This document shows positions 4,969 to 20,463 of a stretch of 64,000 bases of DNA, piece by piece; positions within the stretch are counted from its first letter, which is position 1; the number at the start of each line of letters is the position of its first letter. A program made the translations under genes and the position numbers. The notes beneath the pieces were generated by a model that was not told where the DNA came from, did not search any database, and worked only from the letters and a program-made list of their open reading frames with translations. Source of the stretch: Gemmatirosa kalamazoonensis. GTDB lineage: Bacteria; Gemmatimonadota; Gemmatimonadetes; Gemmatimonadales; Gemmatimonadaceae. The stretch covers positions 3,456,220-3,520,219 of the forward strand of contig NZ_CP007128.1 in assembly GCF_000522985.1 (NCBI RefSeq). The letters run 5' to 3'.

Positions 4969-5031
4969 CGGGGCAGTCAGTCGATCGCCGAACCGGCGCC
5001 CCACGGCGCCGATCGCGTGCTGGGCTTCGGG

Positions 5032-5037
5032 TATACT
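5032..5037 (+). promoter_or_regulatory. possible -10 element (TATACT)
   Basis: TATACT lies 36 nt upstream of the CAP lipoprotein start, in an otherwise GC-rich gap. The same hexamer serves the tRNA-fMet promoter at 39985. No convincing -35 is visible here. Confidence 0.35.
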
Positions 5038-5072
5038 TCGGGTACCCACCGCCTCCCCCCGCAGCCCCGCCG

Positions 5073-5663
5073 ATGCAGCTCTCCTCCCGTCTGCTCGCGG
5101 CCTTCGCCGCGCTCGCGCTCGTCGCCGCCTGTTCCGACTCGCCGGTCGCTCCCGACGCCACCGCCGACGCTCCCGCCGCCGTCAAGCCGTCCGCATCGCT
5201 GTCCGTCGCCCGCACCGTGGCCGTCACCGACTGTGCCGGCGCGACGGTGTACCTCTCGGCCGACGAGAAGCGGACGCTCGACCTGCACAACGCCCAGCGC
5301 ACGAAGAGCGGGCTCCGAACTTTCTGCGTCGATGCCAAGCTCACCGCCGCGGCGCGGTCGCACTCGAACGAGATGATCGACCTGAACTACTTCTCGCACA
5401 GCTCGTACGACGGCACCGCGTTCAACGTGCGCGTGGGGAGCTTCGGCTACACGCCGTACACGGCGCTGGCCGAGAACATCGCGCTCGGCAGCGGGACGTA
5501 CGGGGCGCCGGACGCGATCTTCACGAACTGGATGAACAGTGCCGGGCACCGCGCGAACATCCTGAACGGCACGCTCCGCCAGATCGGAATCGGCGTGAGC
5601 CTCGGGACCTACCAGGGTTACACCGGCGTGCGCATGTACACCGTGGATTTCGGCACGCGTTAG
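5073..5663 (+). CDS. CAP (SCP/PR-1) domain lipoprotein
   Basis: Protein of 196 aa. The N-terminus is a lipoprotein signal with lipobox LVAAC, so the mature protein should be lipid-anchored. Residues about 60-196 form a CAP/SCP domain: LDLHNAQRTKSGL, a SHSNEM helix, YFSHSSYDG, LAENIALGSG, and a WMNSAGHRANILNG motif followed by the terminal beta strands. The His and Glu residues of the CAP cavity are present. Bacterial CAP proteins (YkwD-like) are common in the envelope and their activity is poorly defined. It is flanked by helicase and hydrolase genes on the same strand with no clear functional link. Confidence 0.92.
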   Translation: MQLSSRLLAAFAALALVAACSDSPVAPDATADAPAAVKPSASLSVARTVAVTDCAGATVYLSADEKRTLDLHNAQRTKSGLRTFCVDAKLTAAARSHSNEMIDLNYFSHSSYDGTAFNVRVGSFGYTPYTALAENIALGSGTYGAPDAIFTNWMNSAGHRANILNGTLRQIGIGVSLGTYQGYTGVRMYTVDFGTR

Positions 5664-7312: not shown

Positions 7313-7399
7313 AAGAGGGCAGGAGGGCAGGAGGGCAAAGAGGGCAGGAGAGTCATCGGCTCTCCTGCCCTCTTTGCGCTCCTGCCCTCCTGCCCTCTC
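7313..7399. repeat. hairpin of AGGAGGGC units between convergent genes
   Basis: Two 40-nt arms (7313-7352 and 7360-7399) match at 38 positions around a 7-nt loop. Each arm is a near-tandem array of an 8-bp unit (AGGAGGGC). The element begins 1 nt after one stop codon and ends 2 nt before the stop codon of the convergent lexA gene, so it is placed as a bidirectional terminator. There is no T-run. Confidence 0.85.
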
Positions 7400-7401
7400 C
7401 G

Positions 7402-8046
7402 TCAGGTCGTGATCGCGGAGTCGAACGCCTCGCGGTCGAAGAACGGGCGGAAGACGCCGCACACGACACCGACGACCGCGAACGCGCCGTCCAGCGTCTC
7501 GGTCGCGCCCGCGCTCTGCGCCGCGTTCAGCACCGCGCTCGCCGCGTCGACCGCGCCGTAGGTCTGGATCGTCGTCTCGTCGCCGAAGCGTACGGCGACG
7601 ATGTCACCGGCACGCGGCGGCGCCGACGGGGAGACGACGACGTAGTCGCCGTCGAGCACCCCGCGGCTCTTCAGCGAGTCGCCCTTCATGCGGATCACGA
7701 ACGCGTCGTCGCCCGGCACGAAGCGGCGGTCGAAGCTGATGTGGCCCGCGCGGTCCTCCGGGCGGGCGCTCGCCTCGCCGCCGGCGACCCGCTCGTAGTA
7801 GGGGAGCGGCTGCACGCGCGTGGGTCCCGAGTAGCCCACGATGCGCACGCCTCGCGAGCGCGACGGATCACGCTCGATGTACCCCTTGGCGGAGAGCGAC
7901 TGAAGGAGGTCCGAGACCGTTTTCGTGCTCTTGATCCGGAACTTCTTGCCGATCTCGCGGATGCTCGGCTGGTACGTGTTCTCCGCGAGGAAGTCGAGCA
8001 GAAAGTGGTAGACTTTCCGCTCGATCGGGGTGAGAGGCTCCGCCAT
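7402..8046 (-). CDS. lexA: LexA-like repressor lacking the catalytic lysine
   Basis: Protein of 214 aa. The start at 8046 follows an AGGAG site. Residues 1-70 form a LexA winged helix (TPIERKVYHFLLDF, QPSIREIGKKF, STKTVSDLLQSL, GYIERDPSRSRGVRIV). A linker carries an Ala88-Gly89 pair at the position of the self-cleavage site. The peptidase-S24 domain contains the serine nucleophile in KGDSLKSRG (S124), followed by DGDYVVV. The strand that should carry the general-base lysine reads DETTIQTYG, with Gln161 where LexA has TVKR. No nearby Lys can substitute by eye. Classical LexA represses the SOS regulon and self-cleaves with RecA; this one may be impaired in cleavage. Confidence 0.85.
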   Translation of the reverse strand: MAEPLTPIERKVYHFLLDFLAENTYQPSIREIGKKFRIKSTKTVSDLLQSLSAKGYIERDPSRSRGVRIVGYSGPTRVQPLPYYERVAGGEASARPEDRAGHISFDRRFVPGDDAFVIRMKGDSLKSRGVLDGDYVVVSPSAPPRAGDIVAVRFGDETTIQTYGAVDAASAVLNAAQSAGATETLDGAFAVVGVVCGVFRPFFDREAFDSAITT

Positions 8047-8072
8047 GAGGGGTCTCCTCTGGATGTGCGTAC

Positions 8073-8167
8073 GCCGGAAACCTGTGGTGGCTTCCGGCGA
8101 CAAGATTTTGCGCCAATGTAGGATCAAGCGTTCCTGAGGTCAACGACGCGCGTACGGAAAAGTACGG
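8073..8167 (-). promoter_or_regulatory. lexA promoter, leader hairpin and upstream direct repeat
   Basis: On the minus strand TTGACC (8138-8143) is followed after 17 nt by TACATT (8115-8120), a good sigma-70-type promoter. Downstream in the leader, GCCGGAA-A-CC pairs with GG-C-TTCCGGC (8073-8098). Upstream, GTACGG is repeated directly across AAAA (8152-8167). Either could be an autoregulatory operator. No E. coli-type CTGT-N8-ACAG or Bacillus-type box is present. Confidence 0.5.
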
Positions 8168-8195: not shown

Positions 8196-9677
8196 TCACG
8201 CTCTGCGCGGCACGCCTTCGATGCGTCGTACCGCGACGTCGAGCCGGTGCAGCGAGCGGTCGCGGCCGAGCAACTCGAGCACGTCGAAGATGCCTGGGCT
8301 CGCGGCGGATCCGACGAGCGCCACACGCAGTGGCTGGAACAGCTTGCCAGCACCGACGCCACGCCGCTCGGCGAGCGCGCGGAGGCTCTCCTCCATCGGC
8401 GCGGTGCTCCAATCCGGCAGCGCGGCGAGCGTGTCACGTGTCTCGCCGAGCAGCGCCGCGCTGCCTGCGGGGTCCTTCAGCAGGTGCTTCGCGACCGCGT
8501 CCTCGTCGTACTCGATGGGATCGCGCAGGAACGGCGGCGCCTGACGCACGATCTCGTCGACCGTGCGGCCGCGCACGCGGAGCTGCTCGAGCAGCCGGGC
8601 GTACCAGTCGGGGCGCGCGCGCAGATCCTCCTCCGTCGTGAGCCCAGCGGAGACGAGCGCGGCACCGACGCGCGCCACCACCGCGTCGATCGGGAGCAGC
8701 ATGAGGTGCTGCCCGTTCATCCACTCGAGCTTCTTCGGGTCGAACACGGCGGCCTTCTTCTGCAGGCCGTCGGTGGAGAACAGCGCGATCATCTCGTCGA
8801 CGGTCATCACCTCGCGGTCGCCGCCCGGGGACCAGCCGAGCAGCGCGAGAAAGTTGAGCATCGCCTCGGCGAGGATGCCCATGTGCTCATAGTCGCCGAC
8901 CGCGGTGGCGCCGTGACGCTTGCTGAGCTTCTTGCCGTCCGTCCCGTGAATCATCGGGAGGTGCGCGAACGTCGGCAGCTCGGCGCCGAGCGCCTCGTAG
9001 ATCAGGATCTGCTTCGGCGTGTTGGAGATGTGGTCGTCGCCGCGCATCACGAGCGTGATCGCCATCGCGATGTCGTCCGACACGACGGCCATGTTGTAGA
9101 TCGGCGTCCCATCGGAGCGGAGGACGACGAAGTCCTCGATGTCCTTGTTCGGGAACGTGATGCGGCCGTGCACGACGTCGGTCCACGACGTCTCGCCCTC
9201 GGGCACGCGGAAGCGCACGGCGAACGGCTCGCCGCTGTCGACGCGGCGAGCCACCTCGTCGGCGGACAGACGGTCGCACCGGCGGTCGTACCGGAACGCG
9301 TTGCCCTCCGCCTCGGCCGCCTTTCGGCGCTCGTCGAGCTCCGCGGGCGTGCAGAAGCAGCGGTACGCGGCGCCGCGCTCCACGAGACGCATCGCGTCGG
9401 CGCGGTGCCGCTCGCCGTGCGCGCCCTGGAAGACGACCTCCTCGTCCCACGCGAGCCCGAGCCAGCCGAGCCCCTCGAAGATCGCGCGGGTGCTCGCCTC
9501 GGTGCTGCGCGCGCGGTCGGTGTCCTCGATGCGGAGCAGGAACTGGCCGCCGTAGTGCTTCGCGTACAGCCAGTTGAACAGCGCGGTGCGCGCGCCGCCG
9601 ACGTGGAGGTAGCCGGTGGGCGACGGAGCGAAGCGAAGGCGCGGCGTGCGCGCGGAATCGGTGGAATCGGAGCTCAT
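8196..9677 (-). CDS. gltX: glutamyl-tRNA synthetase
   Basis: Protein of 493 aa, the normal length for a bacterial class-I GluRS. The N-terminal Rossmann fold carries the HIGH-type signature in RFAPSPTGYLHVGGARTA, then LLRIEDTDRARST. The KMSKS-type loop is KKLSKRHGAT. A cysteine pair in YRCFC is part of the zinc-binding region seen in many GluRS. The C-terminal helical anticodon-binding domain is complete. It charges tRNA-Glu, and in organisms lacking GlnRS also tRNA-Gln; which applies here cannot be judged. It sits between lexA and two tRNA-Ser genes, all on the minus strand. Confidence 0.97.
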   Translation of the reverse strand: MSSDSTDSARTPRLRFAPSPTGYLHVGGARTALFNWLYAKHYGGQFLLRIEDTDRARSTEASTRAIFEGLGWLGLAWDEEVVFQGAHGERHRADAMRLVERGAAYRCFCTPAELDERRKAAEAEGNAFRYDRRCDRLSADEVARRVDSGEPFAVRFRVPEGETSWTDVVHGRITFPNKDIEDFVVLRSDGTPIYNMAVVSDDIAMAITLVMRGDDHISNTPKQILIYEALGAELPTFAHLPMIHGTDGKKLSKRHGATAVGDYEHMGILAEAMLNFLALLGWSPGGDREVMTVDEMIALFSTDGLQKKAAVFDPKKLEWMNGQHLMLLPIDAVVARVGAALVSAGLTTEEDLRARPDWYARLLEQLRVRGRTVDEIVRQAPPFLRDPIEYDEDAVAKHLLKDPAGSAALLGETRDTLAALPDWSTAPMEESLRALAERRGVGAGKLFQPLRVALVGSAASPGIFDVLELLGRDRSLHRLDVAVRRIEGVPRRA

Positions 9678-9738
9678 GCGAGATCGGGGTACCGAACGAA
9701 AAACGCGGGTCCGCCGGCGAACCGACGGACCCGCGAAG

Positions 9739-9828
<90 letters not shown>

Positions 9829-9865
9829 AGTATTGGCTCCGGCGCAGCGACGAGAAGGAGCCGAG

Positions 9866-9950
9866 CGGAGGGCCAGGGACTCGAACCCTGAAGTCGCTCG
9901 CGCGACGGCGGTTTTCAAGACCGCTGCCTTAACCATTCGGCCAGCCCTCC
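9866..9950 (-). tRNA. tRNA-Ser(TGA)
   Basis: An 85-nt class-II tRNA with acceptor GGAGGGC/GCCCTCC, anticodon loop CTTGAAA giving TGA, a long variable arm and a TTCGAGT loop. It lies 37 nt from the other tRNA-Ser gene on the same strand; the two are probably co-transcribed. CCA is not encoded. Confidence 0.97.
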
Positions 9951-20372: not shown

Positions 20373-20463
20373 CGAGGGCAGGAGGGCAGGAGGGCAAGAG
20401 GGCAGGAGGGCAGGAGGGCTGTCGACTCTCCTGCCCTCCTGCCCTCCTGCCCTCTTGCCCTCG
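20373..20463. repeat. hairpin of AGGAGGGC units upstream of valS
   Basis: The left arm (20373-20419) and right arm (20428-20463) are arrays of the same 8-bp unit as at 7313-7399, and pair over about 30 bp. On the minus strand it begins 10 nt after the stop of the small gene at 20473-20733 and ends 14 nt before the valS start, so it may act as a terminator or as a valS leader structure. Confidence 0.8.

Follow-up and report, generated by a model that had tools for sequence, protein, structure and literature searches.

A second LexA-family protein encoded behind gltX in Gemmatimonadota with a broken Ser-Lys dyad

The window under analysis was a 64-kb stretch of DNA from a host genome of 7.48 Mb in 4 contigs (prefix G000). 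A LexA paralog gene, further called the window gene or window copy, was located at 8046-7402 of the minus strand. The reading frame was real, since 7402-8046 (-) was translated into 214 amino acids and a stop codon with no internal stop. The protein was matched over its full length by the lexA model TIGR00498 at about 125 bits (124.8-125.3), a score near the cut-off of 110.95. A strongly conserved N-terminal winged-helix DNA-binding domain (residues 3-67, 7846-8040 (-); Pfam PF01726 LexA_DNA_bind, E 9.7e-17) was followed by a degenerate S24 peptidase/dimerisation domain (residues 80-200, 7447-7809 (-)), which was assigned by Pfam PF00717 Peptidase_S24 and by Foldseek matches to LexA structures. 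The recognition helix TKTVSDLLQSLSA, residues 41-53 in the AF2 model, was placed at 7888-7926 (-) by the alignment and the model. The AF2 model, built from 8 sequences, was of moderate quality (mean pLDDT 72.8, with residues 88-92 below 50). The top Foldseek matches of this model were the LexA chains 3k2z, 1jhh and 1jhf, that is, E. coli and Thermotoga structures, indicating that the S24 fold survives in the window protein.

The conserved upstream neighbour was gltX, encoding glutamyl-tRNA synthetase (8196-9677 (-); TIGR00464, 516.5 bits). A putative promoter of the window gene itself was composed of a -35-like TTGACC (8138-8143 (-)) and a -10-like TACATT (8115-8120 (-)) separated by a 17 nt spacer, and both elements resembled EM motifs found in the intergenic regions of relatives (GTTGACC and tAcATT). 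Between this promoter and the start codon, a leader hairpin CGCCGGAA...TTCCGGCG was predicted at 8072-8099 (-) with a fold z of -4.1. The leaders of the loci L004, L005 and L010 carried a similar hairpin of a different sequence, and the z values were -3.8 for L005, -3.0 for L010 and -1.2 for L004. The median over 64 leaders was -0.63, thus a strong hairpin was not general. Two tRNA-Ser genes, GCT and TGA, immediately preceded gltX in the same orientation (9738-9828 and 9865-9950 (-)). Repeated GGGCAGGA units were present on both strands at 7317-7395 and 20376-20460, and formed large inverted repeats, with 9 matches versus none in shuffled sequence.

The cleavage determinants of the window protein were examined by alignment with E. 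coli LexA. Ser124 (codon TCG, 7677-7675 (-)) was aligned with the nucleophile Ser119 and was kept, as claimed by the first-pass annotation. Gln161 (codon CAG, 7566-7564 (-)) was found at the position of the general base Lys156, and the spacing of 37 residues between Ser124 and Gln161 was identical to that between Ser119 and Lys156 in E. coli. The strand of the catalytic Lys was TTIQTY in the window protein versus VTVKRL in E. coli LexA, so the earlier readings of TIQT in place of TVKR and of Gln replacing the catalytic Lys both held. The cleavage site had been placed one residue off, at Ala88-Gly89; the loop RVAGGE was aligned to RVAAGE, and Gly89-Gly90 (7777-7782 (-)) corresponded to the Ala84-Gly85 scissile bond, as judged from both the alignment and its distance of 34 residues from Ser124. 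Hence, two of the three cleavage determinants were altered: the Ser-Lys dyad had lost its Lys, and the scissile bond was neither Ala-Gly nor Cys-Gly. The C-terminal domain contained only two lysines, K121 and K126, both flanking Ser124. As E. coli LexA (chain 7b5g) also has a Lys at Ser +2, these are unlikely to serve as a new active-site Lys, and neither looks a credible substitute for the lost one; the proposal of a broken dyad thus withstood this check. The K156A variant of E. coli LexA was reported to be non-cleavable (PMC3834820).

A search for a second, canonical LexA, as suggested earlier, was successful. A profile search of the contigs located it at G000:C2:3893524-3894123 with 207.7 bits, carrying VAAGM, GNSM and ATVKKF, i.e., the AAG, GNSM and TVKK motifs. 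The operator TTCGG-N6-TTCGG was found in exact form upstream of canonical lexA in 15 of the 15 regions examined. The host genome contained 21 exact sites versus 7 for the backwards control, and six of the 21 directly preceded lexA (two sites), uvrA, ruvB, an imuA-like gene (42.8 bits, lower than the cut-off of 150 for ImuA) and a radical SAM gene of the DNA-repair type. About 0.8 kb downstream of another exact box, beyond an intervening reading frame, there was a Rad52-family gene, and the remaining 14 sites were next to genes with no obvious repair role or to unassigned neighbours. The SOS circuit therefore looks ordinary and appears to be run by the canonical copy. The canonical box was not conspicuous around the paralogs. 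Its best match in the intergenic region of the window gene, both strands considered, had 4 mismatches. The 69 of 116 paralog intergenic regions with gaps of at least 60 nt (the other 47 gaps, below 60 nt, were left out) contained no exact box on either strand and two with a single mismatch at most, compared with 1.07 in shuffles; the 200 nt upstream of all 116 paralogs contained no exact box and three within one mismatch. The recognition helices were also different, STKTVSDL in the window paralog versus SLATVHEH in the resident canonical LexA. These results spoke against the first-pass expectation that SOS control would be altered, and the window paralog is probably not the SOS repressor.

Several further sites and proteins were recorded in the host genome. 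An exact canonical box TTCGGGTATACTTCGG was located in the window at 5026-5041, 31 nt upstream of a CAP-domain (PF00188) gene at 5073-5663 (+) with a lipoprotein-like start, as judged by eye; its product is possibly an SOS-regulated secreted protein. A third S24 protein (L229, G000:C4:509143-509487), carrying GDSM and VCKRVKR, was absent from the TIGR00498 matches of the genome, and a canonical box was present about 1.3 kb upstream of it, immediately before a neighbouring reading frame. Two sites on one contig, G000:C3:11106 and C3:64166 (L244 and L245), displayed an identical reading-frame layout around the canonical box and look like a duplicated element.

The distribution of the paralog was investigated in 148 genomes drawn from the family of the window, 143 of which gave a LexA match. 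In 24 of the 148 genomes the best match was no stronger than E 2.1e-19 (the canonical LexA range or weaker), and 5 had none. The paralog set consisted of 116 complete genes, one per genome, with partial copies in G105, G110 and G139 left out and L002 omitted from the rows as a duplicate of L003; at the seven loci with a named source, this was a Gemmatimonadaceae or Gemmatimonadetes MAG. Paralogs were found in 31 of the 35 genera drawn. All 13 genomes drawn from genus g22 were among the 24 with no paralog-strength match, and each of them, including the single-contig G021, G047 and G097, had one LexA match at E of about 1e-19 to 1e-16. Outside the family, 20 match places were sampled, resulting in 19 paralogs from families f4-f6 and L226, which was rejected as a paralog because it turned out to be canonical-like. 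A gltX gene was located upstream on the same strand within 500 nt of all 116 family paralogs, and upstream of 12 of the 19 copies from other families, where one of the seven misses had just 352 nt of upstream sequence. Downstream of the paralogs, no recurrent same-strand partner was found, and the neighbour clusters mixed opposite-strand genes with antisense frames.

The recognition helix was nearly constant in this group. S40, T41 and V44 were invariant in the 116 paralogs, K42 was kept in 112 (Arg in the other 4) and T43 in 92 (Ser in the other 24), while SLATV was present at this position in all 15 canonical LexA reference rows of the alignment. STKTVSE was recorded in 19 of 19 copies of families f4-f6, with L225 having Arg for the preceding Lys. 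The paralogs formed one clade apart from the 15 canonical rows and E. coli LexA (SH-aLRT 99), so the window gene was not orthologous to the resident canonical LexA; with an STKTV-type helix and gltX directly upstream, it belonged to the gltX-linked group. Literature searches joining Gemmatimonas with LexA returned nothing beyond a community survey, by title, and the phylum name Gemmatimonadetes was absent from the LexA and SOS box papers among the matches listed. The family was likewise absent from the listed titles and abstract starts on catalytically inactive LexA paralogs or a second LexA that resists cleavage, with subscription papers mostly outside the search.

The alignment with other LexA proteins of the phylum, which had been proposed as a check, revealed that the dyad was broken in many paralogs. 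Both Ser and Lys were present in 47 of the 116, both were missing in 64, and five had Ser only (Gln in the window copy, Arg in four others); Lys alone was never observed. The Lys position was occupied by Arg in 60 of the 64 dyad-less proteins, only 3 of which kept Ala-Gly at the cleavage site, compared with 44 of the 47 dyad-intact relatives. In the other families, 2 of 19 copies were intact (both f6), 2 had Ser only, 2 had Lys only and 13 had neither. At least 7 changes of dyad state were counted on the tree of the 116 paralogs, and at least 9 (116 rows) or 10 (135 rows) when the catalytic columns were left out; these were quick trees with 46 of 129 and 56 of 149 forks open, and L226 was flagged as a long branch on the tree lacking the catalytic columns. 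The window copy was grouped with L010, L004 and L005 (support 99, or 92 with the catalytic columns left out). Since the dyad was intact in these three nearest relatives, its loss in the window copy was most likely a separate event. The 47 intact relatives suggest that the original role of the family may have been damage-linked.

The two domains of the window copy had diverged to very different extents. Relative to the dyad-intact rows, the median distance of its HTH was 0.23, ranking 47th of 48 from the most diverged, whereas its peptidase domain ranked first of 48 with a median distance of 0.89 (0.36-0.70 for the intact rows). The CTD/NTD distance ratio of the window copy was 4.0. When only pairs with an HTH distance of 0.1-0.5 were used, the median ratios of protein distances (5-95%) were 1.6 (1.1-3.3) for intact, 2.6 (1.7-4.1) for dyad-less and 2.0 (1.2-3.2) for canonical proteins. 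Protein distances were preferred because dN/dS was rejected as a measure of selection: in these GC-rich genomes, synonymous sites appear to be saturated or under compositional constraint. The CTD/NTD ratio of dN was also high, about 5, for the intact pair L004-L010. The overall pattern fits DNA binding under selection and a released peptidase domain.

A candidate operator was sought in the 69 intergenic regions of at least 60 nt. An EM search yielded the motif tGTaCG.ta.CGtACa, and GTACG-N4-CGTAC at up to 2 mismatches was found in 20 of the 69 regions versus 3.0 in shuffles, although the motif had itself been built on this set of regions. In the window, the palindrome GTACTTTTCCGTAC at 8152-8165 had 1 mismatch to it and is a weak autoregulatory candidate; within the window alone there was no excess over chance. 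When up to 1 mismatch was allowed, 419 palindromic sites were counted in the host genome versus 143 with the backwards control. With stricter versions of the pattern, each of 12 genomes had 0-2 sites, and 25 sites were among the matches listed in 15 genomes. The three exact strict matches were all in paralog promoters, which had partly built the pattern, and the sites beyond paralog promoters were scattered over unrelated or coding places. Two of them adjoined Crp/Fnr-like regulators (L162 and L183, identified by eye), and in two genomes of one genus (L165 and L168) the same hydrolase-like and peptidase-like frames were seen by the site, again by eye and inside a coding frame. The palindrome was therefore rejected as a regulon operator, being common genome-wide with scattered sites, and was kept as a weak lead for autoregulation; no conserved paralog regulon was found by the searches in 12 and 15 genomes. 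Inspection by eye of the upstream regions of paralogs from other families did not reveal the palindrome. Four of these regions (L211, L212, L215 and L222) shared by eye a similar CTTGACAC...CATTAGGATAGC element, which may be a promoter plus operator.

The distance to gltX was at least 62 nt in all 47 intact genes and at most 45 nt in 46 of the 64 dyad-less genes; the gaps of a few loci, e.g., L004 and L005, were approximate due to a wrong-frame ORF, and gltX itself was confirmed in 116 of 116. Promoter fusion was rejected as an independent correlate of dyad loss, as the association came mostly from one clade and 7 independent pairs gave no significant support.

Based on these comparisons, it was proposed, with a probability of about 0.72, that the window gene encodes a second LexA, a DNA-binding repressor behind gltX that is uncoupled from RecA-driven self-cleavage and exists beside an ordinary SOS circuit. 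It would be a LexA-family repressor that was duplicated, diverged and became fixed in Gemmatimonadota downstream of gltX, binding DNA via the conserved winged helix with a specificity most likely unlike that of canonical LexA, and dimerising most likely via the surviving S24 fold. Self-cleavage on RecA filaments would fail, since the general-base Lys is missing and the scissile Ala-Gly is now Gly-Gly. The earlier suggestion of a non-cleavable protein was well supported at the sequence level by these two changes, by the relaxed peptidase domain and by the repeated dyad loss in relatives. With no self-cleavage, repression would be constitutive or set by abundance or by a signal other than DNA damage, and the SOS response of the organism would be run by the separate canonical LexA. 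We infer the repressor activity, as well as the dimerisation and the SOS independence; as no conserved regulon was found, the term repressor is drawn from family resemblance.

LexA fragments are able to cleave in trans. The window protein retains the nucleophilic Ser and an S24 fold, so it may still be cleaved, either very slowly or in trans. It was considered whether the paralog is still damage-switched in trans, being cut by an intact S24 protein or disabled within a mixed dimer by the self-cut of a canonical partner. The RVAGGE loop persists together with the fold, and two other intact-looking S24 proteins, the canonical LexA and the C4:509143 ORF, are encoded in the genome. However, the window protein has Gly in place of the scissile Ala, a substrate site was not generally kept among the relatives (64 of 116 with neither dyad residue, 3 of these 64 with Ala-Gly), and the HTHs of the two LexAs differ, which makes such switching improbable. 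Competition with canonical LexA at SOS operators, where the paralog would act as a non-inducible brake damping the response, might be expected of a non-cleavable LexA with an identical domain architecture. We consider it an unlikely role, as the recognition helices differ (STKTVSDL vs SLATVHEH), the canonical box was no commoner in paralog promoters than in shuffles, and the neighbour is gltX rather than an SOS gene. Decay into a pseudogene would agree with the most diverged peptidase domain of 48 rows and with the single LexA match in 13 of 13 g22 genomes, according to which the gene is dispensable somewhere; yet the open frame, intact start, promoter-like elements and an HTH among the least diverged (47/48), fitting purifying selection on DNA binding, render it very unlikely. 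Finally, the Lys-to-Gln change may be a single-base sequencing error in one genome, a reading opposed by the changed cleavage site and by a peptidase domain that is exceptionally diverged throughout.

Returning to a LexA uncoupled from self-cleavage, a broader and tentative scenario, which we regard as possible rather than likely, may be drawn for the whole group. In at least four families of the class, the LexA duplicate behind gltX would have kept one recognition helix but had its self-cleaving half inactivated several separate times. In the most advanced lineages, the gene would have lost its own promoter and been fused into the gltX operon, resulting in a growth- or translation-coupled repressor in which S24 is a mere dimerisation scaffold. 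LexA is usually regarded as a damage switch defined by self-cleavage, and a duplicate kept in 31 of 35 family genera while the switch was lost several times would separate DNA binding from damage sensing. The paralogs also offer paired natural variants (intact, Ser-only and neither) for studying the re-purposing of autoproteolytic repressors. An annotation warning arises as well: the curated lexA model names the window gene an equivalog despite the loss of two of three cleavage determinants and the presence of another LexA.

The window protein resembles the LexA proteins of E. coli and Thermotoga (TIGR00498) in its LexA_DNA_bind winged helix plus S24 domain, Ser position and fold, but differs in the Lys156 to Gln and scissile Ala84 to Gly changes, in its gltX linkage and in not being the sole LexA. 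It differs from the resident canonical LexA in carrying another recognition helix. The S24 SOS regulators of Bacteroidetes, termed phage-like repressors and not LexA homologs, keep the Ala-Gly bond and the Ser-Lys dyad (PMC8565304), and the likeness lies in paralogy and motif divergence among S24 repressors. Streptococcus mutans IrvR, LexA-like and described as departing from the RecA rule (PMC7101444), was likened to the window paralog by description only. LexA2 of Leptospira interrogans is a second LexA with a divergent HTH, as found here, and has its own palindromic operator TTGTA-N10-TACAA; it retains both Ser and Lys together with a Cys-Gly bond, is encoded in a prophage-like region, and no intact protein was detected following UV (PMC3789691), whereas the dyad of the window paralog is broken and its locus is conserved behind gltX. 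The LexA of Synechocystis sp. PCC 6803 has Gly-Gly at the cleavage site and Asp for Ser (PMC3091678), and it was suggested not to run SOS (PMC4759255). It is a known precedent for a LexA outside SOS and shares with the window protein the Gly-Gly site and a missing catalytic residue, although Ser is the residue replaced there, whereas the window protein retains Ser, lacks Lys and is accompanied by a canonical LexA.
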